In this document: piece after piece, positions 44,507-57,425 of the stretch
How the letters are laid out: the number at the start of each line of letters is the position of its first letter
How positions within the stretch are numbered: the first letter of the stretch is position 1
DNA from: Mesorhizobium sp. L-2-11
Lineage (GTDB): Bacteria > Pseudomonadota > Alphaproteobacteria > Rhizobiales > Rhizobiaceae
NCBI RefSeq assembly: GCF_016756595.1
Contig: NZ_AP023257.1
Span: forward strand, 186,001-250,000
Length of the DNA: 64,000 nt
Direction: 5' to 3'
Translations under genes and position numbers: made by a program
Notes under the pieces: model-generated
Told to the model about the DNA's origin: nothing
Seen by the model: the letters and a program-made list of their open reading frames with translations, nothing else
The model's database searches: none

Positions 44507-47344
44507 TCACTCCGCCGCGTGAAGGCGTCGCGCCTCGATGATGGTCCTGATCTCGGCACGGCAGGAGCCGCAATTGGTGCCGGCATGCAAGGTGGCGCCG
44601 ATCGCTTCGACGCTAACGCAGCCTCCGCGCACCGCTTCGGCGATCTGATTGGCGCCGACCCCGAAACATGAGCAGACAACGGCGCCACGATCGACGCTGT
44701 TGCCGCCCGGTCGCCCCGCCACGATCGCCAGTCGCCCGCGCCGATCGGCATGGTCAGCGCTCAACTGCTCGACCGCCCAGCCGCGCGACACCGCGACCGG
44801 CCTGGGGGCAAGATAGAGCGCGCCAGTCAGCCGACTGCCGGTAAAGCGGGCGAAGCGATAGTGCCCGCCGGCGACATCATGATAGGCGAGTGTCTCGCCT
44901 GGCGCGTCCGCCCCGAAAAGCGAAGCCGCGAAATCCGGCCAGTCCCGGTCGGCTTCCAGCGCAAGCTCGAGACGCCAGCCGGCAGCGCAGCGGGCGAGGC
45001 TCCAATAGTCGGCGTCAATCGAGGCTGGCCGTTCGGCAAGCACCGCGAAGCCGAACGCGACGGCAGCGAAGCGTTCCACCCGGGCGGCAACATTCTTCGA
45101 GGCCGGCTGCCCTGAAATCGGATCGGTGATGGGGGCCACCAGCGCATCGACACGAGCCCGCGCGGAAAACTGGTCCGTCCAATGCATCGGCACGAAGACC
45201 GAGCCTGGCCGCTGCCGCACCGTCACCAGCGCACGAAGCAGCACCTCGCCATGCTCGGTCGAGACGCGCAAGATGTCGGCATCGCCGATGCCGAAGTGCT
45301 GCGCGTCCGCCGGGTGGATTTCGGCGAACGGCTCGGCCAGGTGCTGCGACAGCCGTGGGCTTTTTCCCGTCCGCGTCATAGTGTGCCAGTGGTCGCGAAC
45401 GCGCCCGGTGTTGAGCACCAGCGGGAATTTTTCGTTCGTGCGGGTTTGGGGAACTGGACGGATCGGGATGAAGCGCGCCTTGCGGTCGGGCGTGTAGAAG
45501 CCGCCGTTGGCGAAGAAGCGGGTGCTTCTAACCTCCGGTCGGCGCCAGGCACCCCCCTCTAGCCTGCCGGCCATCTCCCCCTCAAAGGGGGAGATTGGCA
45601 GTTTTGCCGACGTTGCCTCTTCTGCAATGGTAGCGATTGGCGAAAACGACGGTGACATCCGATCTCCCCCCTTGAGGGGGAGATGGCCGGCAGGCCAGAG
45701 GGGGGTGCCTGGGCTCGGCGCTGGCCATTGGAATGGCGCCAGCGCATCATATCCCTCCGCATCGACCCCGCCATACGCACCGATGTCGAAGTCGCGGGCG
45801 CCGTCATTCTCGAATGCCGACAGCGCGGCGTGCTCGGCGAAGATATCGGCTGGCGACGGATGCGAAAACGCTTCGCCAAAACCCATCCGCTTGGCGACTT
45901 CGGCGATGATCCACCAGTCGGCCCTTGCCTCGCCGGGCGTGGCCAAAAAAGCGCGCTGGCGCGAGATGCGGCGCTCCGAATTGGTGACGGTGCCGTCCTT
46001 CTCGCCCCATGCGGCGGCGGGCAGGCGGACATGGGCGTGGCGGACCGTGTCGGTCTTGGCCAATATGTCCGACACCACGACAAACGGGCAGGCCTTGATC
46101 GCCGCCTCGACGGCATCGGCGTCCGGCATCGAGTCGACCGGGTTGGTCGCCACGATCCACAGCGCCTTGATGCGCCCGTCGGCTACCGCCTGAAACATCT
46201 CGACCGCCTTTAGGCCGGGCTCTTCGGGGATATCAGGCGCACTCCAGAAACGCTGCACGCGGTCGCGGTGCTCGGGGTTTTCGATCTCCATATGGGCGGC
46301 CAGCATGTTGGCCAGGCCGCCAACCTCCCGACCGCCCATGGCGTTGGGCTGGCCGGTCACTGAAAACGGGCCGGCGCCGGGCTTGCCGATGCGGCCGGTG
46401 GCGAGGTGACAGTTGATGATGGCGTTGACCTTGTCGGTGCCCGAGGAAGACTGGTTCACGCCCTGGCTGTAGACGGTCACCGTCTTCGCCGTCGCGGCGA
46501 ACAGGCTGTAGAAGCGGACAAGCTCGTCCTCGCCGAGGCCCGTGGCCGCGGCAACGCCGGCAAGATCGAGCGCGGAGGCGGCAAAAAAGGCTTGCCCGAA
46601 GCCGGTTGTGTGCGCCGTGATATAGGTGCGGTCCAGCGTGTTGTGCTGGCCGAGATAGGCGAGCAGCCCTGTGAACAGCGCGACGTCACCATCCGGCGCG
46701 ATCGCCAGATGCATGTCGGCAATATCTGATGTCATCGTGCGGCGTGGGTCGACCAGCACCACCTTCATTTCGGGCCGTTTTTCCCGGGCAGCGGCAATGC
46801 GCTGGTAGAGCACCGGATGGCACCAGGCGAGATTGGAGCCGACCAGCACGATCAGGTCGGCGAGTTCCAGATCCTCGTAGCTGCCCGGCACCGTGTCAGA
46901 GCCGAAAGCGCGGCGGTGGCCGGCAACCGACGAGGCCATGCACAGGCGCGAATTGGTGTCGATATTGGCCGAGCCGATGAAGCCTTTCATCAGCTTGTTG
47001 GCGACATAATAGTCCTCGGTCAGCAATTGACCGGAGACGTAGAAGGCGACCGCGTCGGGACCGTGCTCGGCGATGGTCCGCGAGAAGGTCGAGGCGACGA
47101 GGTCGAGTGCTTCGTCCCAGTCGGTGCGGCGACCGTGGATCTGCGGATAGAGCAGCCGTCCGTCGAGGTCGATCGTCTCGGCCAGCGCCGAGCCCTTGGA
47201 ACAGAGCCGGCCGAAATTCGCCGGATGGTCAGGGTCGCCGCGAACGGTTATCTCACCGTTCGCGGCGACCTTCGCCAGCACGCCGCAGCCCACCCCACAA
47301 TAGGGGCAGGTGGTCCTCACCTCGCGCGCTTCGTCGATCTCCAT
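44507..47344 (-). CDS. nasA: Assimilatory nitrate reductase, catalytic subunit, with an in-frame repeat insert
   Basis: A 945-residue molybdoenzyme reducing nitrate to nitrite. The N-terminal [4Fe-4S] motif is TCPYCGVGCGVLAKV with a fourth Cys in RLCSKGSA. Molybdopterin-binding motifs follow (NSRLCMASSVAGHRRAFG, QSSSGTDKVN, TGQPNAMGGREVGG). A C-terminal BFD-like [2Fe-2S] domain (VVCSCFGVGANQIAEAV, GTNCGSCRAEI) supplies an electron entry site. The ATG at 47344 is two bases after the nirD stop. Residues from about 545 to 600 (56 codons) are encoded by a palindromic repeat at 45545-45712 and interrupt the family sequence, making the protein longer than usual. Confidence 0.93.
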   Translation of the reverse strand: MEIDEAREVRTTCPYCGVGCGVLAKVAANGEITVRGDPDHPANFGRLCSKGSALAETIDLDGRLLYPQIHGRRTDWDEALDLVASTFSRTIAEHGPDAVAFYVSGQLLTEDYYVANKLMKGFIGSANIDTNSRLCMASSVAGHRRAFGSDTVPGSYEDLELADLIVLVGSNLAWCHPVLYQRIAAAREKRPEMKVVLVDPRRTMTSDIADMHLAIAPDGDVALFTGLLAYLGQHNTLDRTYITAHTTGFGQAFFAASALDLAGVAAATGLGEDELVRFYSLFAATAKTVTVYSQGVNQSSSGTDKVNAIINCHLATGRIGKPGAGPFSVTGQPNAMGGREVGGLANMLAAHMEIENPEHRDRVQRFWSAPDIPEEPGLKAVEMFQAVADGRIKALWIVATNPVDSMPDADAVEAAIKACPFVVVSDILAKTDTVRHAHVRLPAAAWGEKDGTVTNSERRISRQRAFLATPGEARADWWIIAEVAKRMGFGEAFSHPSPADIFAEHAALSAFENDGARDFDIGAYGGVDAEGYDALAPFQWPAPSPGTPLWPAGHLPLKGGDRMSPSFSPIATIAEEATSAKLPISPFEGEMAGRLEGGAWRRPEVRSTRFFANGGFYTPDRKARFIPIRPVPQTRTNEKFPLVLNTGRVRDHWHTMTRTGKSPRLSQHLAEPFAEIHPADAQHFGIGDADILRVSTEHGEVLLRALVTVRQRPGSVFVPMHWTDQFSARARVDALVAPITDPISGQPASKNVAARVERFAAVAFGFAVLAERPASIDADYWSLARCAAGWRLELALEADRDWPDFAASLFGADAPGETLAYHDVAGGHYRFARFTGSRLTGALYLAPRPVAVSRGWAVEQLSADHADRRGRLAIVAGRPGGNSVDRGAVVCSCFGVGANQIAEAVRGGCVSVEAIGATLHAGTNCGSCRAEIRTIIEARRLHAAE
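45545..45712. repeat. 168-bp palindromic element inside nasA
   Basis: The outer inverted arms CCAGGCACCCCCCTCT and AGAGGGGGGTGCCTGG enclose CTGCCGGCC arms and two inner hairpins of the form ATCTCCCCCTC / GAGGGGGAGAT. 168 bp is exactly 56 codons, and the reading frame crosses it without a stop on the nasA strand. The same architecture recurs at 60355-60529. Confidence 0.85.
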
Positions 47345-47346
47345 GC

Positions 47347-47682
47347 TCAAGCCGCGCGACTGGCCAGCGCTTCCAGCGCAATGAATAGACGCTCGCCCTC
47401 GATCCGCACCGGGATGGTGCGCACCGCACCGTCGTCGGCGCCAAGCGCCTTGCCGGTTTCCAGCGAGATCACCCAATTGTGCAGGGGACAGGTCACCGCT
47501 GCGCCATGGACGATGCCCTGCGAGAGCGGTCCGCCCTTGTGCGGGCAATGGTCCTCGATGGCAAATACCTGGTCCTCTGCCGTGCGGAAGACGGCGATCT
47601 TGCCTTGAGGCGTGGCGACGCAGCGCGCGCCGCGGCGCGGGATGTCCGAGAGCGTGCCGACAGCAATCCAATTCATCATCAT
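47347..47682 (-). CDS. nirD: Nitrite reductase small subunit NirD
   Basis: A 111-residue Rieske-type protein. The cluster-binding pairs are in DHCPHKGGPLSQG and VTCPLHNWVIS (C-x-H and C-x2-H). It is the small subunit of NADH-dependent nitrite reductase and probably carries or tunes electron transfer. The first of three ATGs at 47682 overlaps the nirB stop by one base (TGATG). Confidence 0.95.
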   Translation of the reverse strand: MMMNWIAVGTLSDIPRRGARCVATPQGKIAVFRTAEDQVFAIEDHCPHKGGPLSQGIVHGAAVTCPLHNWVISLETGKALGADDGAVRTIPVRIEGERLFIALEALASRAA

Positions 47683-50132
47683 CACTCCGCCGCCTGCGCG
47701 AAACCGACCGAAGCCATCGGCCGGAATTCGTGTTTGTCCTTGCCGGAAACGCGTTCCGACCACGGGTCGACCTGGGCGAATTTCTGCGAAAAGACGAAGC
47801 GGTCGAAATAGGCCTTGCGCTTCTCGCCATCGTCCATGATCTGGCGCTTGATCTCGGCGATGCCGATGCGCTTGGCCCATTTGTAGATGCGCTCGAGATA
47901 GCGGCCCTGCTCGCGATACATTTGCGTCAGCGCCACGATATGCTCCAGTGCCTCGTCCTCGGTCTTGACCAGGCCGAGCACCTCGGTTCCCTTGATGTCG
48001 AGGCCGGCTGCCCCGGCGAAATGGATCTCGTAGCCTGAATCGACGCAGATCACGCCGACATCCTTGCAGGTTGCCTCGGCGCAGTTCCTCGGGCAGCCCG
48101 ACACCGCCATCTTGACCTTGGCCGGCGTCCACGAACCCCACATGAATTTCTCGATGCGGACGCCGAACCCCGTCGAATCCTGCGTGCCGAAGCGGCACCA
48201 GTCCGAACCGACGCAGGTTTTCACCGTGCGCAGTCCCTTGGCATAGGCGTGGCCGGAGACGAAGCCGGCCTGGCCGAGATCGGCCCACACCGCCGGCAGA
48301 TCCTCCTTGCGGATGCCGAGCATGTCGATGCGCTGGCCACCGGTGACCTTGACCATTGGGATTTCGAATTTGTCGACGACATCGGCAATGGCGCGCAGTT
48401 CGGCGGCATTGGTGACGCCGCCCCACATGCGCGGCACCACCGAATAGGTGCCGTCCTTCTGGATGTTGGCGTGGACGCGCTCGTTGATGAAGCGCGACTG
48501 GTAGTCGTCGGCATACTCGTCCGGCCAGTCGCAGACGAGATAGTAATTGAGCGCCGGCCGGCATTTGGCGCAGCCGCAGGAGGTGGTCCATTCCAGCTCC
48601 TGCATGACGGCGGGAATGGTCTTCAGACCCTTGGCCCTGATCAGCCGGCGGACCTCATCATGGCCGAGCGTGGTGCAGCCGCACATCGGTTGCACCGCCG
48701 CGGGATTGTATTTGTCGCCGATGGTCAGCACCATCAGCTTTTCGACCAGCCCGGTGCAGGAGCCGCAGGAGGCGGACGCCTTGGTGTGTGCGCGCACGTC
48801 ATCGAGCGAGGTCAGGCTTTTGGCCGTGATCGCGCCAGTGATCTTTCCCTTGCAAACGCCGTTGCAGCCGCAGATTTCCGCATCATCCGGCAAGGCTGCA
48901 ACGGCCGCCATAGGGTCCAGGGAGGCGCCCCCCTGGTATGACTGGCCGAAGATAAGCGTGTCGCGCATTTCCGATATGTCGGTCTGCTTCTTCTTGAGGT
49001 CGTTGAACCAGGCGCCGTCCGCCGTCTCGCCGTAAAGCACGGTGCCGATGATGCGGTCATCCCTGAGCACCAGCCGTTTGTAGACGCCGGCAGCGGCATC
49101 GCGCAGCACGATCTCCTGGCGGTCCTCGCCCTCGGCAAAGTCGCCGAGCGAGAACAGCTCGATGCCGGTAACTTTGAGCTTGGTCGGCGTGTCCGAATGG
49201 ACGAAGGCGGCGGCCTCGTCGCCGGCCAACTGGCTGGCAGCGACACGCGCCATCTCATAGAGCGGTGCGACCAGGCCGTAGACCATGCCGTTGACCTCGG
49301 CGCACTCGCCGAGCGCGAAGATGTCGGGGTCGTTGCTGCGCATGCCGGCATCGACGACGATGCCGCGATTGACGGCAATGCCGGCGTCTTTCGCCAGCGT
49401 CGCATTCGGCCTTATGCCGACCGCCATCACCACCAGCGTCGCCGGGATGATGGTTCCGTCGGCGAGTTCCACCTGCTCGACCTTACCCTTGCCGGTGATC
49501 GCCTGGGTGTTGGCCTTGGTGATGACCTTGATGCCGCGCTGTTCGACCGCGCGCTGCAGCAGATAGCCAGCGGCCGGATCGAGCTGTCGTTCCATCAGCG
49601 TCGGCATGACATGCAGCACGGTGACGTCCATGCCCTGCGCGTTCAGGCCCGCAGCCGCCTCCAGCCCTAGCAGGCCGCCGCCGATAACCACGGCCTTGGC
49701 CCGTGACTGCGCTGCCAGCATCATCGCCCGAACGTCGTCGAGATCGCGATAGGTCAGCACGCCGGGCAGATCATGGCCGGGCACCGGGATGATGAACGGC
49801 ACCGAGCCGGTGGCGATGACGAGCTTGTCGTAGGGCTCGGTGACGCCGTGGTCGGAGGTGACGGTCTTTGCCTGCCGGTCGATGGCGACGATCTTGTGGC
49901 CCTTGTAGAGGGTGATCCCGTGCTTGATGTACCAGCCATCGCCATGGATGATGATCTCCTCATAATCCTTTTCGCCTGACAGAACCGGCGACAGCATGAT
50001 GCGGTCGTAGTTCACGCGCGGCTCGGCGTTGAAGATGGTGACCTGGTAGAGGTCCGGCGCCTTTTCCAGCAGGTGCTCCAGCATGCGCCCGGGGGCCATG
50101 CCGTTGCCGATGATGACGAGTTTTTCGGTCAT
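47682..50132 (-). CDS. nirB: Nitrite reductase large subunit NirB
   Basis: An 816-residue siroheme enzyme that reduces nitrite to ammonium with NAD(P)H. It has an N-terminal FAD/NAD half (LVIIGNGMAPGRMLEHL, VVIGGGLLGLEAAAGL), a BFD-like [2Fe-2S] region (CGCNGVCKGKITGAI, SASCGSCTGLV) at about residue 415, then the ferredoxin-like half domains. The siroheme and [4Fe-4S] Cys set is TCVGSDWCRFG and VSGCPRNCAEATCKDVGV. Start ATG 50132. It is 19 bp after the transporter stop, within the nas operon. Confidence 0.95.
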   Translation of the reverse strand: MTEKLVIIGNGMAPGRMLEHLLEKAPDLYQVTIFNAEPRVNYDRIMLSPVLSGEKDYEEIIIHGDGWYIKHGITLYKGHKIVAIDRQAKTVTSDHGVTEPYDKLVIATGSVPFIIPVPGHDLPGVLTYRDLDDVRAMMLAAQSRAKAVVIGGGLLGLEAAAGLNAQGMDVTVLHVMPTLMERQLDPAAGYLLQRAVEQRGIKVITKANTQAITGKGKVEQVELADGTIIPATLVVMAVGIRPNATLAKDAGIAVNRGIVVDAGMRSNDPDIFALGECAEVNGMVYGLVAPLYEMARVAASQLAGDEAAAFVHSDTPTKLKVTGIELFSLGDFAEGEDRQEIVLRDAAAGVYKRLVLRDDRIIGTVLYGETADGAWFNDLKKKQTDISEMRDTLIFGQSYQGGASLDPMAAVAALPDDAEICGCNGVCKGKITGAITAKSLTSLDDVRAHTKASASCGSCTGLVEKLMVLTIGDKYNPAAVQPMCGCTTLGHDEVRRLIRAKGLKTIPAVMQELEWTTSCGCAKCRPALNYYLVCDWPDEYADDYQSRFINERVHANIQKDGTYSVVPRMWGGVTNAAELRAIADVVDKFEIPMVKVTGGQRIDMLGIRKEDLPAVWADLGQAGFVSGHAYAKGLRTVKTCVGSDWCRFGTQDSTGFGVRIEKFMWGSWTPAKVKMAVSGCPRNCAEATCKDVGVICVDSGYEIHFAGAAGLDIKGTEVLGLVKTEDEALEHIVALTQMYREQGRYLERIYKWAKRIGIAEIKRQIMDDGEKRKAYFDRFVFSQKFAQVDPWSERVSGKDKHEFRPMASVGFAQAAE

Positions 50133-50151
50133 GTGCTGATCCACTCCGGTC

Positions 50152-51453
50152 TCACTCAGCCGCGAAGGAAAGGCCTGAAGCTTCGGCGGCGGCCGCGCGC
50201 TCCATCCGCCGGATGCTGAAGTGCATCCAGGCAAAGCAGGTGGCGACGATGACGAAGAGCAGCATGAAGCAGCTCGACCAGACGCCGGTGAGGTCGTTGA
50301 GTGCGCCGAAGGCGATTGGCAGGATAAAGCCGCCGAGCCCGCCAATCATGCCGACAACGCCGCCGACCGCGCCGACACTCTGCGGGTAGTAAGCCGGGAT
50401 GTGCTTGTAGACGGCGGCCTTGCCAAGGCTCATGAAGAAGCCGAGCACGCAGGCAACGGCTATGAAGGCGACCGGGCCGATCTCGAAATGGAAGGCGATC
50501 GGCCCGCTGATGCCGCGCACGACGAAGTCTGCCGAAGGGAGAGACAGAACGAGAGTAGCAACGGCACTGACCGCGAAGGTCCAGTAGAGCACGGTGCGGG
50601 CGCCGATCCGGTCGGAAAGCACGCCGCCATAGGCGCGGAAGATGCTTGCAGGGATCGAATAGGCCGCGCCGATCATGCCAGCGGTCGCGATGCCGAAGCC
50701 GTAGACGCCGATCAGGTAGCGCGGCAACCACAGCGATAGCGCCACGAATGCACCGAAGGCGAAGAAATAATAGAAGGCGAAGCGCCAGACCTGCAGGTTC
50801 TTAAGCGGGGCGAATTCCTGCAAGAAGCTTCTCGCGGGCGCTGCCTTGCCGGCGCGGCGCTCGCGAATGACCGGATCGTCGTCGGTCGTGAACCAGAAGA
50901 CGGCGGCCATGACGACGAGTGCTGCCGCCCAGATCAGCGCGACCGACTGCCAGCCCCAGGAGAGAAGCATGAACGGTGCCAGGAACTTGGTGACCGCGGC
51001 GCCGACATTGCCGACACCGAAAATGCCAAGCGCCGTGCCCTGCTTGCCGGCCGGGAAGAAGCGCGAGACATAGGCGACACCGACGGCGAAGGAACCACCG
51101 GCGAGCCCAACGCCTAACGCGGCGACCAGCATCTGTCCGTAGGTTTGCGCAAAAGCGAGCAGGAAGGTCGCGACCGCCGCCGCAAGCATGGTCGCGGTGT
51201 ATACCAGCCGTCCGCCAAAACGGTCGGTCCAGACACCGAGCACCATGCGCACGAGCGAACCGGTGAGGATCGGCGTGCCGACCAGCAGGCCGAACTCCGT
51301 CTCGTTCAGCCCAAGGTCCTGCTTTATGCGCACGCCGATGATTGAAAATATCGTCCACACCGCGAAGCAGACGGTGAAGGCGATGGTGGACATCACAAGC
51401 GCCTGCCGGGGAGCATTGTCCTGGCTGGGCGCGGCTGGGAGATTTGCGGTCAA
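50152..51453 (-). CDS. MFS nitrate/nitrite transporter (NNP family)
   Basis: A 433-residue, about 12-helix permease. Motifs fit the nitrate-nitrite porter family: LLVGTPILTGSLVRMVLGVW with DRFGGR, GVGNVGAAVTKFLAPFML and GGVVGMIGGLGGFILPIAFG, the glycine-rich nitrate signature stretches. It imports nitrate for NasA. It is the first full-length gene of the nas operon and gives a second uptake route beside the NrtABD transporter. Confidence 0.92.
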   Translation of the reverse strand: MTANLPAAPSQDNAPRQALVMSTIAFTVCFAVWTIFSIIGVRIKQDLGLNETEFGLLVGTPILTGSLVRMVLGVWTDRFGGRLVYTATMLAAAVATFLLAFAQTYGQMLVAALGVGLAGGSFAVGVAYVSRFFPAGKQGTALGIFGVGNVGAAVTKFLAPFMLLSWGWQSVALIWAAALVVMAAVFWFTTDDDPVIRERRAGKAAPARSFLQEFAPLKNLQVWRFAFYYFFAFGAFVALSLWLPRYLIGVYGFGIATAGMIGAAYSIPASIFRAYGGVLSDRIGARTVLYWTFAVSAVATLVLSLPSADFVVRGISGPIAFHFEIGPVAFIAVACVLGFFMSLGKAAVYKHIPAYYPQSVGAVGGVVGMIGGLGGFILPIAFGALNDLTGVWSSCFMLLFVIVATCFAWMHFSIRRMERAAAAEASGLSFAAE

Positions 51454-51508: not shown

Positions 51509-51700
51509 TCAGCGGCGCGGCATCGGTGCGAGCAACGAGACCGCGCTCGCCACGGTCAGGTCCTTGCTTTCCGTCTTGGCGCCGACGGGAAACAGCAGGA
51601 GCGCGGCGGTGAACAGCGCCGCCGTCAGCGCGTTGCTGGCCAGAAAATCGCGGCGCGTGAAGTCCGCGAGGGACGCGCCAGTTCCGATCCGTTTCATCAT
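51509..51700 (-). CDS. 63-residue signal-peptide-like ORF at the head of the nas operon, NrtA remnant
   Basis: It starts at ATG 51700 with GGAGA seven bases upstream. The first half has a twin-arginine-like signal (TRRDFLASNALTAALFTAALL). It aligns with the start of NrtA: both begin M-x-KRI-x-T, then TRR-x-FL, TAA, and a P-x-GA site. After that no domain follows. The leader in front also matches the nrtA leader. I read it as the kept 5' end of a duplicated nrtA gene; it may be translated, but a function is unknown. Confidence 0.6.
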   Translation of the reverse strand: MMKRIGTGASLADFTRRDFLASNALTAALFTAALLLFPVGAKTESKDLTVASAVSLLAPMPRR

Positions 51701-51754: not shown

Positions 51755-51824
51755 AAAAAAAGCCGCCGGTCAGGTCTTTGCGCGTCCGTCCATCGGGGAT
51801 CGCGTATTGACCTGAGCGGCAGCT
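51755..51824 (-). terminator. Intrinsic terminator of the nas leader
   Basis: On the minus strand, AGCTGCCGCTCAGGTC pairs with GACCTGACCGGCGGCT at 15 of 16 positions, enclosing a GC-rich loop, and is followed by a run of seven T. It lies between the sigma-54 promoter and the first start codon, so it would end transcription unless prevented. Its 5' arm includes the 3' side of hairpin P2. Confidence 0.85.
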
Positions 51825-51852
51825 TTGCCTGTGGCGCCCGCCATTGGACACC
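51818..51852 (-). promoter_or_regulatory. Two-hairpin ANTAR (NasT) target in the nas leader
   Basis: P1 is a 7-bp stem with hexaloop AAUGGC (51833-51852). P2 is a short GGC/GCC stem with hexaloop AAAGCU (51818-51829), three bases after P1. Both loops have A at position 1 and G at position 4, the reported ANTAR consensus. P2 cannot form together with the terminator. NasT, an ANTAR protein, is encoded at 56790-57389. Confidence 0.8.
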
Positions 51853-51886
51853 GTGTCACTTGGCCCTTGCGGACCTACATTCTGAA

Positions 51887-51904
51887 AAGCAGGAAGCGTG
51901 CCAA
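51887..51904 (-). promoter_or_regulatory. Sigma-54 promoter of the nas operon
   Basis: Minus strand TTGGCACGCTTCCTGCTT. The GG and GC dinucleotides are 10 bases apart, as in the -24/-12 consensus TGGCACG-N4-TTGC (here CTGC). Confidence 0.82.
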
Positions 51905-52012: not shown

Positions 52013-52029
52013 AGCATAATATTTGTGCA
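52013..52029 (-). promoter_or_regulatory. NtrC-like dyad upstream of the nas promoter
   Basis: Minus strand TGCACAAATATTATGCT, a 17-bp imperfect dyad with TGCA-type half sites, about 110 bp before the -24 box. The equivalent site at nrtA is closer to consensus. It overlaps the 11-mer TTGTGCAATGC. Confidence 0.55.
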
Positions 52030-52097: not shown

Positions 52098-52895
52098 TTA
52101 CTCCGCGGCTTCGACGAAGCGGTGGCGTTCGTAGAGGAACTTCAGCACTGCCTCACGGCAGCGCAGGAAGGTCCGGTCGGAGGAAAGCTCGATGCGCCGG
52201 CGCGGCCGGGCCAGCGGCACGGCAAGCACCTCGCCGATGGTCGCCGCTGGACCGTTGGTCATCATGACGATGCGATCGGACAACAGCACCGCCTCGTCGA
52301 CATCGTGCGTGATCATGATCGTCGTCGAGCCAAGCCTCGAATGGATATCCATCACCGCATCCTGCAGATGGGCGCGCGTCAGCGCGTCGAGCGCACCGAA
52401 GGGCTCGTCGAGCAGCAGGATCTTCGGCTCCATCGCCAGCGCGCGGGCGATGCCGACGCGCTGCTTCATGCCGCCCGATATCTCGGCGGGCCGCTTGTCC
52501 CTGGCATGCGCCATCTGTACGAGGTCGAGATTGCGCATGATCCAGTCATGCCGCTCGGCCTTGGTCCTGGTCGAACCGAACACCTTCGACACCGCCAGAT
52601 TGATGTTCTCGTAGACGGTGAGCCACGGCAAAAGGCTGTGGTTCTGGAACACCACGGCGCGCTCGGGTCCGGGGCTGTCGACCTCCTTGTTTTCGAGCAG
52701 GACCGCGCCGGCGGTCACTTTCGTCAGTCCGGCGATCAGGTTGAGCAAGGTCGACTTGCCGCAGCCGGAATGGCCGATGATGGAGACGAATTCGCCTTTG
52801 TCGATGGTCAGCCGGATGTCTTTCAGCACCTCGCTGACCTGGCCGCCGCGGGCAAAGGATTTGTCGATATGGTCGAGTTTCAGGTAGGCCGTCAT
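52098..52895 (-). CDS. nrtD: Nitrate ABC transporter ATP-binding protein
   Basis: A 265-residue ATPase. Walker A is GHSGCGKST, the Q-loop VVFQNHSLLPW, the signature ISGGMKQR (M in place of Q), Walker B ILLLDEPFGALD and the switch His MITHDVDEA. It is the single ATPase of the NrtABD set (no separate NrtC). It ends about 400 bp before the next nas gene. Start ATG 52895. Confidence 0.93.
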   Translation of the reverse strand: MTAYLKLDHIDKSFARGGQVSEVLKDIRLTIDKGEFVSIIGHSGCGKSTLLNLIAGLTKVTAGAVLLENKEVDSPGPERAVVFQNHSLLPWLTVYENINLAVSKVFGSTRTKAERHDWIMRNLDLVQMAHARDKRPAEISGGMKQRVGIARALAMEPKILLLDEPFGALDALTRAHLQDAVMDIHSRLGSTTIMITHDVDEAVLLSDRIVMMTNGPAATIGEVLAVPLARPRRRIELSSDRTFLRCREAVLKFLYERHRFVEAAE

Positions 52896-52906
52896 CGCCC
52901 CTCTCC

Positions 52907-53803
52907 TCACTTTGCCGTTGTGCCGCGGGTGACGAAGGCGCCGACCGCCGCGACCAGGCGGTCGAGGCAGAAGCCGGTGACGCCGATATAGGCGAGCGCA
53001 ACGATGATGTCGGGCAGCCGCGACGAGTTCCAGGCGTCCCAGATGAAGAAGCCGATGCCGACGCCGCCTGTCAGCATTTCGGCGGCGACGATCGCGAGCC
53101 AGGACAGGCCGATTCCGATGCGCAGGCCGGTAAAGATGTAAGGTGCCGCGGCCGGCACCATGATCTTCACGAAGAATTCGAGCTGGTTGAGCCGGAGGAT
53201 GCGGGAGACGTTCCGGTAGTCCTCTGGAATGTTGCGGACGCCGACGGCGGTGTTGATGATCACCGGCCAGATCGAGGTGATGAAGATGACGAAGATCGCC
53301 GACGGGCTGGAATCGCGGAAGGCAGCCAGCGACAGCGGCAGCCAGGCGAGCGGCGGCACGGTGCGCAGAATCTGGAACACAGGATCGAGGCCGCGCATCG
53401 CCCAGATCGACTGGCCGACCAGTGCGCCGAGCGCGACGCCAACGATGGCAGCCAGGCCGAAGCCGATGGCGACGCGCTGCAGCGAGATCAGCACCCGCCA
53501 GGCCAATCCGATATCCTGCGGACCATAGTCGAAGAACGGATGGGCGATCAGATCGTAGGCCTCGTTCCATACCTGGCTAGGTGGCGGCAAGCTGGCGTTG
53601 GGCGACGAGCAGGCGATCTGCCAGATGACGAGCATGACGACGATGACGATTGCCGGCGGCACCAGCGTGCTCGCCAGCTTGCCGGCGATCGCGGCGGGAT
53701 CGAAGCGGCGTCTCACCTTGGCGGTGAAAGCTATGACCTCTGCGGGCTTGGCAGGCGTGGGGAACGCCTTGACCTTGGTGTCCTCGATGGCTTGGATAGA
53801 CAT
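52907..53803 (-). CDS. nrtB: Nitrate ABC transporter permease
   Basis: A 298-residue inner-membrane permease. It has about six helices (from LVPPAIVIVVMLVIWQI) and an ATPase-docking EAA-like loop, RNVSRILRLNQLEFFVKIMVPAAAP without the exact EAA residues. A TTG at 53812 lies four or five bases after AAGGAG, so it may be the real start; I give the ATG at 53803 because it is the more common start type. It is 11 bp before nrtD. Confidence 0.92.
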   Translation of the reverse strand: MSIQAIEDTKVKAFPTPAKPAEVIAFTAKVRRRFDPAAIAGKLASTLVPPAIVIVVMLVIWQIACSSPNASLPPPSQVWNEAYDLIAHPFFDYGPQDIGLAWRVLISLQRVAIGFGLAAIVGVALGALVGQSIWAMRGLDPVFQILRTVPPLAWLPLSLAAFRDSSPSAIFVIFITSIWPVIINTAVGVRNIPEDYRNVSRILRLNQLEFFVKIMVPAAAPYIFTGLRIGIGLSWLAIVAAEMLTGGVGIGFFIWDAWNSSRLPDIIVALAYIGVTGFCLDRLVAAVGAFVTRGTTAK

Positions 53804-53870
53804 TTTTCGCAAAAAGCTCCTTGAGCATTGGCGTGATAGGCGGCGCCACTGGCACCGCTTGCCGGCGACG

Positions 53871-55187
53871 TCAGGCCGATGCCTTGATCTTCAGGCTGTC
53901 GAGATAGGCGGACGGATTGGCCGGATCGAAGATCTTGCCGTCGAAGAAGGTCTCGACGCCGCGCGATGAAGACGCCGGGATGTCGGCTGCCGCGACGCCG
54001 AGATCCTTCGCCGCCTCGCGCCACAGATCCTCGCGGTTGACCTGATCGACCAGCGCCTTGATGTCGGTGGTCGCCGCGAATTTGCCCCAGCGGATGTTTT
54101 CGGCGAGGAACCAGCTGTCGTGGCTCTTGAACGGATAGGACACACCGCCCTTCCAGAACTTCATGTAGAGGTCGGTGCCGGCGGCGACGCGGTCGTTGCC
54201 GTAATTGATGTCGCCCTTGAGGCGGCCGATGATGTCGGCGGTCGGCACGTTCATCCATTGCCGCTTGCCGATAATGGCCGCCATCTCGTCCTTGTTTTCC
54301 ATGGCTTCGCACCATTGCTGGGCTTCCATGACGGCCATCAGGATTGCCTTGGTGGCGTTCGGGTTCTTGTCGATGAAAGCGGCGCGCAGGCCGAGCGCCT
54401 TTTCCGGATGGCCTTTCCACAACTCGCCCGTTGTGGCGGCGGTGAAGCCGACGCCCTGATGGACGAGTTGCTCGTTCCATGGCTCGCCGACGCAGAACAC
54501 GTCCATGTTGCCGACCTTCATGTTGGCGACCATCTGCGGCGGCGGCACAACGATGGTCGAGACATCCTTGTCGGGATCGATGCCGCCGGCAGCCAGCCAG
54601 TAGCGCAACCAGAGATCATGGGTGCCGCCCGGGAAGGTCATGGCGGCTTTCACCTCCTTGCCTTCTGCCTTCCTGGCCGCAAACGCGTCCTTCAGCTTGG
54701 AGGCATCGAGGCCGACGCCGGTGCCGGCATATTCCTGCGCCACGGAAATCGCCTGGCAGTCGTAGTTGAGCCGCGCCACAATAGCCATCGGCATCGGCTG
54801 GTTGTTCTGCGTCACCTTGCCGGTGTGCATCAGGTAAGGCATCGGCGTCAGGATATGGGCGCCGTCGATGCCGTTGGCTTCGCCGCCGAGCATCAGATTG
54901 TCGCGTGTCGCGCCCCAGGAGGCCTGCTTGAGCACCTCGACATCGGGCATGCCGAATTTTTCGAACAGGCCCTTCTCCTTGGCGATCATCAGCGGCGCTG
55001 CATCGGTCAGCGCGATGAAGCCGAGCTTGGCGCCAGTGACTTCCGGAGTTGCCGTCGCCGCATAGGCGCCGGACGGCAGCAGCGCGCGCGCCGCCGCCAG
55101 CGTTGCCGCGGTAGCAGCACTTGCCATCAGAAAATTGCGGCGGGTCATGCCCTGGAAAGGGGCTTCAGTCTTGATGCGTTTCGTCAT
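53871..55187 (-). CDS. nrtA: Nitrate ABC transporter substrate-binding protein
   Basis: A 438-residue exported protein. The twin-arginine signal is TRRNFLMASAATAATLAAAR, followed by the CmpA/NrtA fold (LGFIALTDAAPLMIAKEKGLF, AHILTPMPYLMHTG, WNEQLVHQGVG). It binds nitrate (and perhaps nitrite) and delivers it to NrtB. The ATG at 55187 has GGGAGA upstream. Its promoter region is similar to that of the nas operon. Confidence 0.93.
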   Translation of the reverse strand: MTKRIKTEAPFQGMTRRNFLMASAATAATLAAARALLPSGAYAATATPEVTGAKLGFIALTDAAPLMIAKEKGLFEKFGMPDVEVLKQASWGATRDNLMLGGEANGIDGAHILTPMPYLMHTGKVTQNNQPMPMAIVARLNYDCQAISVAQEYAGTGVGLDASKLKDAFAARKAEGKEVKAAMTFPGGTHDLWLRYWLAAGGIDPDKDVSTIVVPPPQMVANMKVGNMDVFCVGEPWNEQLVHQGVGFTAATTGELWKGHPEKALGLRAAFIDKNPNATKAILMAVMEAQQWCEAMENKDEMAAIIGKRQWMNVPTADIIGRLKGDINYGNDRVAAGTDLYMKFWKGGVSYPFKSHDSWFLAENIRWGKFAATTDIKALVDQVNREDLWREAAKDLGVAAADIPASSSRGVETFFDGKIFDPANPSAYLDSLKIKASA

Positions 55188-55249
55188 TGTCGTCTCCCGT
55201 TGGGCACTGCTTGGGATCAGCGCCGTCGATTGCCGTGCTCGGTCAAAAC

Positions 55250-55318
55250 AAAAAAGCCGCCGGCCAGGCCGCGCGCGTCCGTCCATCCGGGGATCGCGTG
55301 TTGACCTGAGCGGCAGCT
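55250..55318 (-). terminator. Intrinsic terminator of the nrtA leader
   Basis: Minus strand AGCTGCCGCTCAGGTC pairs with GGCCTGGCCGGCGGCT, then six T. Two pairs differ from the nas leader copy but still pair (U-A in nas, U-G here), so the stem is conserved. It overlaps hairpin P2. Confidence 0.85.
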
Positions 55319-55346
55319 TTGCCTGTAGCGCCCGCCATTGGACGCC
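55312..55346 (-). promoter_or_regulatory. Two-hairpin ANTAR (NasT) target in the nrtA leader
   Basis: P1 stem GGCGUCC/GGGCGCU with loop AAUGGC (55327-55346) and P2 GGC/GCC with loop AAAGCU (55312-55323), three bases apart. Base changes relative to the nas leader keep pairing: C-G becomes U-G, and G-U becomes G-C. Confidence 0.8.
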
Positions 55347-55381
55347 TGTTCCGTGACCCCAAGAAGAGTCTTCTTATGGCG

Positions 55382-55399
55382 AAGCAGGAACCGTGCCAG
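55382..55399 (-). promoter_or_regulatory. Sigma-54 promoter of nrtABD
   Basis: Minus strand CTGGCACGGTTCCTGCTT, matching TGGCACG-N4-TTGC with one change (CTGC) and GG-N10-GC spacing. Confidence 0.82.
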
Positions 55400-55506: not shown

Positions 55507-55523
55507 TGCATAATTTTTGTGCA
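55507..55523 (-). promoter_or_regulatory. NtrC-like dyad upstream of nrtA
   Basis: Minus strand TGCACAAAAATTATGCA, a 17-bp dyad with TGCA ends as in NtrC boxes, about 110 bp before the -24 box. TTGTGCAATGC overlaps it (55517-55527). Confidence 0.6.
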
Positions 55524-55548: not shown

Positions 55549-56787
55549 TCAGGCTTCGGCGCGCGCCAATTTCTGCATGGCAATGTAGGCGTCGACCTCG
55601 TCGGGATCGAATATCTGGCCATCGAAGAAACCATCGGGGCCGAGCACCAGACTGGCGCCGGCGGAGCCGACAGGTGTGGCAGACGCCAGCGCGCCCTCCA
55701 CCTTAGAATTGGCGCCGGGAAGTGCGACACCGAGCGGCTTCAGCGCCGACCGGTAAAGATCGGGGCGGTAGCAGTCGAGGGCGATGGCCAGATTCTCCGG
55801 CGTGTGCGCCACATGTCCCCAGCGCACCATCTGCGTGTAGAACCACAGCGCATGGCTCTTCCAGGGAAAGTTGGCGGCCTTGTCGAAGGGCAGGAAGAAA
55901 TCCTCGACCGTTCGTTCCGCGCCACCGCCGAGTTGGAGATGTCCGCTCAGGATCGGCATCTGCAGCGCCGGCGAAAGGCCGAGGAAGGAAGGCTGCGCCA
56001 TCAGGGCGGCCAGTTCGCCGCGGTTTGCCGGATCCTGGCACCAGCGCGCGGCGTGATGGAGCGCGCGCAGCAGCGCCGAAAGGGCTTCCGGGTGCCTTTC
56101 GGCCCAGGCGTTGCGTACGCCGACGACTTTCTCCGGGCTGGTCTTCCAGATGGTGGCCTTGACCGTGGCGATATGGCCGGTGCCGGCGACGACCGAGGCG
56201 CTGTTCCACGGTTCGCCGGCGCAGTAGCCGTCGATCCTGCCGGCGGCGAGTGCGTCGGCCATGAACGGCGGCGGCACGATGACGATTTCTATTTCGCGCG
56301 ACGGATCGATGCCGCAGGCGGCGAGCCAGTAGCGCAGTTCGTAATTGTGTCCGGAGTGCGGATGCACGACCGCAAAGCGCAGTGGGTCGCGACCGGCATT
56401 TGCCCGTTCACGGATCAGCGCTCCCAAGGCCTTGCCGGCCCGCGCCGGATTGAGATCGGGCAAGGCGCCGTGCGCGGCCATGCCTGCCCAGAGCGTGTTC
56501 GAAACCGTTACGCAGTTGCCGCCCAGCCCCAGCGAGAACGGCACGATCGTGTCGGAGGCGAGTGGGGTGAGCCCCAGATTGCAGGCGATCGGCATCGGCC
56601 CCAGCATATGCGCCAGGTCGAAATGTCCGATCGCGATGCGGTCGCGGATGTTGGCCCAAGAGGTTTCGCGACTGAGCGTCAGGTCGACGCCTTCGCGCGC
56701 GGCAAAGCCGATCTCCTTCGCTGCGACAAGGACGGCACTATCGAAGAGCGGCATGAAACCGGCATTGATCTGGTGTTCGGCCGCCAT
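55549..56787 (-). CDS. nasS: Nitrate sensor NasS (NrtA-like, cytoplasmic)
   Basis: A 412-residue protein with the NrtA/CmpA fold (INAGFMPLFDSAVLVAAKEIGF, AHMLGPMPIACNLGL, GEPWNSASVVAGTG) but no signal peptide, the mark of NasS. In other alphaproteobacteria NasS binds NasT and releases it when nitrate or nitrite is present (family knowledge). The ATG at 56787 has GGAGAG eight bases upstream and is two bases after the nasT stop; a TTG at 56793 is also possible. Confidence 0.92.
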   Translation of the reverse strand: MAAEHQINAGFMPLFDSAVLVAAKEIGFAAREGVDLTLSRETSWANIRDRIAIGHFDLAHMLGPMPIACNLGLTPLASDTIVPFSLGLGGNCVTVSNTLWAGMAAHGALPDLNPARAGKALGALIRERANAGRDPLRFAVVHPHSGHNYELRYWLAACGIDPSREIEIVIVPPPFMADALAAGRIDGYCAGEPWNSASVVAGTGHIATVKATIWKTSPEKVVGVRNAWAERHPEALSALLRALHHAARWCQDPANRGELAALMAQPSFLGLSPALQMPILSGHLQLGGGAERTVEDFFLPFDKAANFPWKSHALWFYTQMVRWGHVAHTPENLAIALDCYRPDLYRSALKPLGVALPGANSKVEGALASATPVGSAGASLVLGPDGFFDGQIFDPDEVDAYIAMQKLARAEA

Positions 56788-56789
56788 GC

Positions 56790-57389
56790 TCAACTCTCTC
56801 CGGGATCCAGAAGGCCTGCCGCCGTCACCAGGCTCTGCGCGATTTCGCTTATCTTGCGGTTCTGGTTCATGGCGGTCTTGCGCAAAAGCGCATAGGCCGC
56901 GTCCTCCGACAGGCCGCGTGATCGCATCAGGATGCCCTTGGCGCGATCGATGACCTTGCGGTCCTCCAATTCACTGCGGGCCTCCTCCAGTTCGCGCGCC
57001 ATCCGCGAGAACGCGTTGAAGCGACTGATCGCCATGTCGAGGATCGGCTTGACGCGCTCCTGGCGCAGCCCGTCGACGACATAGGCAGAGACCCCCGCTT
57101 CCACCGCAGCTTCGATTGAAGCCTGATCCGACCGGTCCACGAACATGGCGATCGGCCGCTTCACCACGCGCGAAAGCTGGAACATGTTTTCAAGCATATC
57201 GCGGTTGGGATTTTCGAGATCGATGACGATTACGTCCGGTTCGATCTCGGCAATGCGCCGCGCTATTCCCGCAACATCGTGAACGACCGTGACCTGCTCA
57301 TGCCCGGCCTCCCGCAATCCCGCCTCGATGATGGAGGCGCGGATGTGGTTTTCATCGATCACCAGGACAGTGAGGGATTTCCGGATCAT
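56790..57389 (-). CDS. nasT: ANTAR-domain antitermination regulator NasT
   Basis: A 199-residue response-regulator-like protein. The receiver domain runs from VLVIDENHIRASIIEAGL with VIVIDLENPN at the pseudo-acceptor position, and the C-terminal ANTAR three-helix domain reads LEDRKVIDRAKGILM then LSEDAAYALLRKTAMNQNRKI. ANTAR binds the twin hexaloop hairpins at 51818-51852 and 55312-55346. It forms an operon with nasS. I use ATG 57389; an upstream ATG at 57422 would add eleven unlikely residues. Confidence 0.93.
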   Translation of the reverse strand: MIRKSLTVLVIDENHIRASIIEAGLREAGHEQVTVVHDVAGIARRIAEIEPDVIVIDLENPNRDMLENMFQLSRVVKRPIAMFVDRSDQASIEAAVEAGVSAYVVDGLRQERVKPILDMAISRFNAFSRMARELEEARSELEDRKVIDRAKGILMRSRGLSEDAAYALLRKTAMNQNRKISEIAQSLVTAAGLLDPGES

Positions 57390-57414
57390 GCTGCATTTTG
57401 CGCACACAGCGTGA

Positions 57415-57425
57415 TTGTGCAATGC
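57415..57425. promoter_or_regulatory. TTGTGCAATGC motif before nasT
   Basis: Exact 11-mer shared with the nrtA, nas and exoZ promoter regions, 26 bp before the nasT start. Confidence 0.45.

Follow-up and report, generated by a model that had tools for sequence, protein, structure and literature searches.

A predicted NasS-NasT antitermination leader, one of two in the nitrate assimilation cluster of Mesorhizobium sp. L-2-11

A 64,000-nucleotide stretch of the Mesorhizobium sp. L-2-11 genome (contig NZ_AP023257.1, positions 186,001 to 250,000; hereafter the window) carries on its minus strand a nitrate assimilation (nas) cluster in the order nasT, nasS, leader A, nrtA, nrtB, nrtC, leader B, a 63-codon open reading frame (ORF), narK, nirB, nirD and nasA. 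Leader B is the subject of this analysis. The original prediction, made from the sequence alone, placed this putative NtrC/sigma-54/ANTAR antitermination leader before the nas operon; it does precede nas genes, its exact position being that of the second block of a two-leader cluster. From position 51904 to 51755 of the minus strand a -24/-12 element, hairpin P1, hairpin P2, a terminator and seven T residues follow one another:

51887-51904, minus strand: -24/-12 (sigma-54) promoter, TTGGCACGCTTCCTGCTT, GG-N10-GC, read from the sequence
51833-51852, minus strand: P1 hairpin, GGUGUCC-AAUGGC-GGGCGCC, 7 pairs with hexaloop AAUGGC, from sequence and folds
51818-51829, minus strand: P2 hairpin (antiterminator), GGC-AAAGCU-GCC, 3 pairs with hexaloop AAAGCU, from sequence and folds
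51762-51826, minus strand: intrinsic terminator stem, its 5' arm beginning at 51826, from folds and pairing in the alignment
51755-51761, minus strand: T-run of the terminator, seven T, read from the sequence

The promoter and the loops AAUGGC and AAAGCU named in the original prediction were confirmed on the minus strand, as was the presence in each hexaloop of A at position 1 and G at position 4 (A1 and G4). The terminator 5' arm, said to contain P2, shares the P2 loop and 3' strand but not the P2 5' strand, which lies outside it. When both strands of the window were scanned for two A-N-N-G-N-N hexaloops with an overlapping terminator arm before a T-run, two places were found, at 51845 and 55339; 20 dinucleotide shuffles of the window gave none, and likewise 10 cruder shuffles. 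Leader B is not a chance occurrence. A generic terminator scan of the window, run together with a sigma-70 scan, did not report its terminator, probably because such a scan permits short loops and unbroken stems only.

The second place belongs to leader A (55250-55399, minus strand), a near-copy missed in the original prediction that follows nasS and precedes nrtA:

55382-55399, minus strand: -24/-12 promoter, CTGGCACGGTTCCTGCTT, read from the sequence
55250-55346, minus strand: P1, P2, terminator and T-run before nrtABC, 90% identical to leader B over 105 bases and scoring 109.2 bits with R1

R1 is an RNA model built on the leader. In the 7.4 Mb genome, where scoring was limited to 150 of 9497 first-look candidates and weaker targets can therefore escape, leaders A and B reached 109-110 bits and were the sole matches above 100 bits among the candidates scored. 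No further NasT target emerged from this search, the next matches being the opposite strands of the two leaders (34.2 and 19 bits) and two at approximately 16 bits.

Relatives were collected by a NasT scan, from which the best 80 of 360 loci were retained (78 from Mesorhizobium); since NasT fetched them, nasT stands beside the leaders there by construction. In 79 of the 80 a leader immediately precedes a block of nitrate transporter genes, the exception (L069) being a contig that ends inside nasS. The 79 loci comprise 26 with nrt only (one, L064, cut off after nrtB), 27 with both transporters and 26 with narK only, and every nrt block and every narK block has its own leader. The 106 leaders of relatives, lying before nrtA (52), narK (53) or an nrtC remnant (1), make 108 with the two of the window. 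Searching 61 related genomes with leader B DNA gave matches in 33, of which 30 were strong, all within the 37 genomes of the genus; the remaining three reached only E 0.004-0.006 and two of these lay outside the genus. R1, applied without use of NasT to 121 genomes across the family, matched 38, namely the source genome, one of the same genus and 36 of other genera. Among 18 of these 36 other-genera loci that were examined, a NasS/NrtA-type protein lay within 3 kb in all 18 and narK was next in 11; a nasT stretch was visible in the 3 kb loci L149, L152, L153, L156 and L158, found by R1 independently of NasT.

A1 and G4 are unchanged in both loops of all 108 leaders. All four remaining positions of the P1 loop vary, whereas in the P2 loop variation is confined to position 2 (1 leader) and position 3 (3 leaders), and positions 5 and 6, which double as terminator arm, are constant. 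Base pairs of P1, P2 and the terminator are kept across relatives with few both-sided changes (4 cells for P1 plus terminator, 2 for P1 plus P2). Counted on 70 of 101 distinct leader sequences, whose rows are close relatives, 99.2% of cells pair in P1 plus the terminator as against 31-47% with slid arms, and 0 of 500 shuffles reach 99.2%. For P1 plus P2 the figure is 99.7% (44-73% slid), with one both-sided change per hairpin and zero in six slid controls.

Folding with and without the terminator region, as the original prediction had proposed, yielded the two alternative structures. The full 136 nt of leader B fold as P1 plus terminator with a minimum free energy (MFE) of -62.8 kcal/mol (z -4.34; 0 of 200 shuffles as low), and the RNA cut before the terminator 3' arm folds as P1 plus P2 with ordinary stability (z -1.31; 19 of 200 shuffles were equally low). 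P2 and the base of the intrinsic terminator share sequence, and the claim that the two are mutually exclusive is narrowed: in the folds P2 excludes the lower terminator stem, but the upper stem can coexist with it. In a growing leader B chain (98 nt) P1 appears at length 20 and P2 at 35; after an interval considered below P2 returns at 72, the upper stem joins at 82, P2 is gone at 87 and the lower stem beside the T-run is present at 90. The leader A chain (97 nt) flickers more, with P2 and the upper stem together at 82, loss of P2 at 88 and the lower stem formed at 90. These folds, which describe equilibrium and not kinetics, indicate that P2 competes with the lower stem alone. In the unbound MFE structure of P2 an A1-U6 pair is closed and the loop becomes a tetraloop; with the hexaloop open, three stem pairs are left. 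All 108 leaders have T at position 6 of the P2 loop (51826-51821), which would allow A1 and U6 to pair and close a tetraloop in the unbound RNA.

Each leader is preceded by a candidate NtrC site:

52014-52029, minus strand: NtrC-like enhancer site of leader B, TGCACAAATATTATGC, TGCAC-N7-RTGC, found by pattern approximately 125 bp upstream of the -24 element
55508-55523, minus strand: NtrC-like site of leader A, TGCACAAAAATTATGC, same pattern

The original prediction had called leader B complete with respect to NtrC; positions 51755-51904 contain no NtrC site, and it is the upstream element at 52029-52014 that may supply one. TGCAC-N7-RTGC, which from the general consensus we take to be an NtrC site, is found upstream of 104 of the 108 leaders (shuffles averaged no more than 0.3 per group of 26-28), at 120-129 bp before the -24 element in 103 of 103 measured; shared descent contributes to this frequency. 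The stricter GCAC-N7-GTGC is in neither window leader. In two-leader loci it occurs at 16 of 28 A leaders and 1 of 28 B leaders, and elsewhere at 23 of the 26 leaders of nrt-only loci and 8 of the 26 of narK-only loci. A site quoted in the available text of PMC5424462 resembles the TGCAC-N7-RTGC pattern but is not identical to it. Three of the 108 alignment rows lack part of the promoter and were set aside; of the other 105, 104 keep GG-N10-GC. Outside the window, the genome encodes NtrC (696.6 bits; cut-off 558.6) and has two RpoN genes above cut-off. The elements of a sigma-54/NtrC promoter are thus all found, namely GG-N10-GC, a pattern approximately 100-150 bp upstream that NtrC would bind, and genes for both proteins.

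The remaining genes of the cluster, with NasT and NasS, the cognate pair, encoded nearby at its head, are:

56790-57422, minus strand: nasT, receiver-like and ANTAR antiterminator (78.4 bits)
55549-56793, minus strand: nasS-like nitrate sensor, NMT1_2 (NrtA structure 2g29, E 2.5e-49; no evident signal peptide on inspection)
53871-55286, minus strand: nrtA ORF, nitrate ABC transporter binding protein (NMT1_2, 358.2 bits)
52907-53812, minus strand: nrtB, permease (TIGR01183, 307.2 bits)
52098-53570, minus strand: nrtC/D ORF, ATPase, the domain being residues 249-479 (TIGR01184, 334.8 bits)
50152-51453, minus strand: narK, MFS nitrate/nitrite transporter (TIGR00886, 206.8 bits, under the 311.7 cut-off; MFS_1)
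47682-50345, minus strand: nirB ORF, nitrite reductase large subunit, true start internal (TIGR02374, 910.3 bits)
47347-47673, minus strand: nirD, nitrite reductase small subunit, the C-terminal part of ORF 47347-48591 (TIGR02378, 101.8 bits)
44507-47830, minus strand: nasA-type assimilatory nitrate reductase ORF, true start internal (Molybdopterin domains, Fer2_BFD; NasC model 435.3 bits, under the 1100 cut-off)

The first ATG of the nrtA ORF sits within leader A and its start is likely further downstream. Besides nasT, three further ANTAR matches were found in the genome. In two of them (L002, G000:C1:2347184-2350342, and L003, G000:C1:584457-587606) the ANTAR gene lies directly downstream of an AmiC-like binding protein gene, with a nitrilase-like gene or ABC permeases as neighbours, and by inspection these are probably AmiC-AmiR systems. 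The third (L004, G000:C1:5655223-5658306) matches ANTAR in part, at 25.6 bits, within a frame of 410 residues.

Taken together, we conclude with high confidence that leader B acts by transcription antitermination under the control of NasS-NasT, from a promoter driven by sigma-54 and NtrC, and is one of two such leaders in the nas cluster. Under ammonium scarcity, NtrC bound approximately 125 bp upstream would start transcription at the -24/-12 promoter, and the nascent leader RNA would fold P1 and P2. Without nitrate, NasT would be held by NasS; after synthesis of the final part of the terminator 3' arm, the lower stem would oust P2 and polymerase would stop at the T-run. With nitrate, NasS would free NasT, which would grip both hexaloops at A1 and G4 and keep P2 closed, such that the upper hairpin is separated from the T-run and readthrough reaches the small ORF, narK, nirBD and nasA. 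Leader A would act likewise for nrtABC. Binding of NasT and its release by nitrate are proposed here by analogy with relatives, in line with the available text of PMC3795266 and PMC4724949.

Several observations weigh against this interpretation. The P2 stem has three pairs only, the growing leader B chain has an MFE structure without P1 and P2 at lengths 65-71, and keeping P1 and P2 closed costs approximately 13 kcal/mol in leader B and 12 in leader A relative to the terminator fold, a cost that NasT binding and timing would need to overcome. Covariation is thin: both-sided changes in P1 plus the terminator comprise 4 pairs in one sequence each, and 4 of 6 slid controls show 6 both-sided cells, so covariation is no argument for that structure. 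NasT-binding or expression data for Mesorhizobium leaders were not found, and a Bradyrhizobium narK gene with a predicted NasT leader was more highly expressed in a nasT mutant under denitrification (PMC6759348, available text). Furthermore, Rfam searched on the leader at E up to 10 returned the narK RNA family RF03032 at 15.2 bits (gathering score 43.2; E 2.7). As this is chance level, membership of leader B in RF03032 was rejected.

Were the hairpins a mere terminator ending nrtABC transcription, there would be no regulated readthrough and narK-nirBD-nasA would be switched at the promoter alone. Leader B does follow nrtC directly, and when folded in full it forms a strong terminator, but that terminator sits downstream of the -24/-12 promoter and would thus stop the narK block too. 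Retention of A1 and G4 in both loops of all leaders, and 26 loci in which a leader precedes narK with no preceding nrtC, likewise make this explanation very improbable. The presence elsewhere in the genome of ANTAR genes, two of them next to AmiC-like genes, raises the question of whether an AmiR-type protein rather than NasT reads the leaders. The 79 loci fetched with NasT provide no independent evidence on this point; however, nasT heads the cluster, the AmiR-like genes are far off at other operons and the five R1-found loci with a nasT stretch were obtained independently of NasT, and we give this alternative next to no credence. EutX/Rli55 RNAs provide a model for a third proposal, in which terminated short leader RNAs would also work in trans, holding NasT and linking the output of both leaders, in addition to rather than in place of control in cis. 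Two leaders with identical loops in one cluster would suit it, but it is proposed from the sequence, and in the folded terminated RNA the lower stem takes up P2 and leaves the P1 hexaloop alone free; we consider it unlikely.

Between leader B and narK lies the small ORF:

51509-51700, minus strand: 63-codon ORF resembling a twin-arginine translocation (Tat) signal and the NrtA N-terminus

An ATG ORF of 40-65 codons follows 47 of 54 narK leaders (52-65 codons in 45 of these), with a twin-arginine-like motif, a hydrophobic stretch (absent in L008) and likeness to the NrtA N-terminus. The pooled ratio of nonsynonymous to synonymous changes (dN/dS) is 0.42 (45 sequences, L008 and L013 dropped; codon bootstrap 0.31-0.60) and 0.24 for the first 38 codons. 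A protein search with the ORF gave 49 matches among 51 candidates; those with an organism name are from Mesorhizobium, and the names given are hypothetical protein, Tat-signal protein and nitrate substrate-binding protein. No Pfam or NCBIfam match was obtained, and tblastn (E 1e-5) did not find the ORF upstream of 11 narK loci of other genera, a 63-residue query being a weak probe. Arguing against a working protein, the window copy appears unconstrained relative to L005 (proportions of synonymous and nonsynonymous differences, pS 0.00 and pN 0.05), with dN/dS of 1.91 against L010 and 1.13 against L011, each on few changes. The ORF is frameshifted or disrupted in the close strains L016, L017 and L018, where leader and narK are still present; it has a TTG start in L044 and a changed end frame in L013, and is absent in L065, L074 and L078. 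These features would fit a dead relic, an explanation that we do not favour given the retention in 47 of 54 cases and the pooled ratio; we prefer to read the ORF as coding for a small protein under constraint that arose from the start of an nrtA gene.

The distribution of transporters allows a more speculative suggestion, that leader-nrtABC and leader-small ORF-narK are exchangeable cassettes swapped by recombination at the repeated leaders, each arriving with its NtrC/sigma-54/NasT gate, with the Tat-like protein a NarK partner made from the old nrtA start. We regard this as possible yet doubtful. On trees obtained by quick searches, with many unsupported forks, the three-way architecture label requires 23 changes for nasTS (shuffled mean 38.2) and 10 for nirB (37.7), well-supported branches alone forcing 7-8 and 3-4 changes per label, respectively. 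These counts indicate that transporter changes were recurrent and that transporters move together with nirB more than with nasTS. The alignments covered 20 locus pairs, 14 with differing and 6 with matching architectures. In the narK/nrt sister pair L043/L071 identity is 96% in nasT, 95% in nasS, 94% in the upstream stretch, 91% in the promoter and 98% in the leader, falling to 51% in the 60 nt past the T-run and then to 64 and 44%. Such a clean junction at the T-run was seen in only this one of four narK/nrt pairs, which speaks against cassettes: identity drops later in L022/L029 and less cleanly in L037/L050, and L025/L046 is already divergent upstream. Moreover, all 3 dual/narK pairs diverge upstream of the leader, and the same 60 nt are low in 3 of 7 dual/nrt pairs (L028/L027 42%, L035/L034 43%, L031/L080 48%). 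As these pairs share a downstream nrtA, the drop alone proves nothing. In L038 a leader is followed by an nrtC piece and then by a second leader before narK. These data offer a hint of recombination at repeated leaders. If cassettes do exist, the leader would be a portable nitrate-gated socket by which Mesorhizobium strains gain, lose and swap ABC and MFS nitrate transporters, hinting that an RNA switch can be the common joint of swappable transport modules.

In comparison with catalogued RNAs, the high-scoring Infernal match anticipated in the original prediction was not obtained: at gathering score Rfam reports one tRNA in the window and nothing significant on the leader (an ANTAR-leader family under another name in Rfam 15 was not checked). 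The RF03032 consensus contains a hairpin, CC-AACGGC-GG, that resembles P1 of leader B. It also holds CGAC-AAAGAC-GUCG, readable as a second A1/G4 hexaloop hairpin, and RF03032 may therefore itself be an ANTAR leader family. No study of these leaders in Mesorhizobium was found among titles and abstract openings, few subscription journals and not the supplementary predicted-leader tables of PMC3369931 falling within that scope.

NasT and ANTAR leaders as such are already well described, and nasT and nasS mutants and NasT binding have been published in relatives (PMC3795266, PMC5424462, PMC6759348, PMC4724949, PMC3369931, here and below for their available text; the last for ANTAR leaders). The dual-hexaloop motif of EutV, NasR and AmiR targets similarly has A1 and G4 in two hexaloops and a second hairpin overlapping a terminator, and mutating loop positions 1 and 4 harms EutV binding and induction (PMC3369931); sequence and operon differ here, and P2 of leader B is a three-pair stem. 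The P. denitrificans nasA leader (PMC3795266, PMC5424462) is alike in having nasTS directly upstream, two hairpins and NtrBC involvement, and NasT binds that leader RNA on nitrate. In the text available, however, one leader is described there, before nasABGHC, and an NtrC-binding site before nasT, whereas here there are two leaders, each with a -24/-12 element and an NtrC-like pattern. The Bradyrhizobium diazoefficiens/japonicum NasST system (targets narK, nirA and nosR; PMC6759348, PMC4724949) shares predicted NasT-type hairpins before narK, where narK-lacZ required NasT under aerobic assimilation (PMC4724949), and nrtABC-like genes upstream of narK, there transcribed from a different promoter. 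In the window, by contrast, the cluster forms one contiguous block with nirBD as the nitrite reductase genes; nrtA is also preceded by a leader of its own, a point on which the available Bradyrhizobium text says nothing. The predicted leaders place NasT antitermination in a genus of legume symbionts, with 108 natural leaders as a ready test bed for the loop and stem positions that matter. What is found here looks like an RNA switch of familiar kind, the less expected feature being two near-copies, one before each nitrate transporter.
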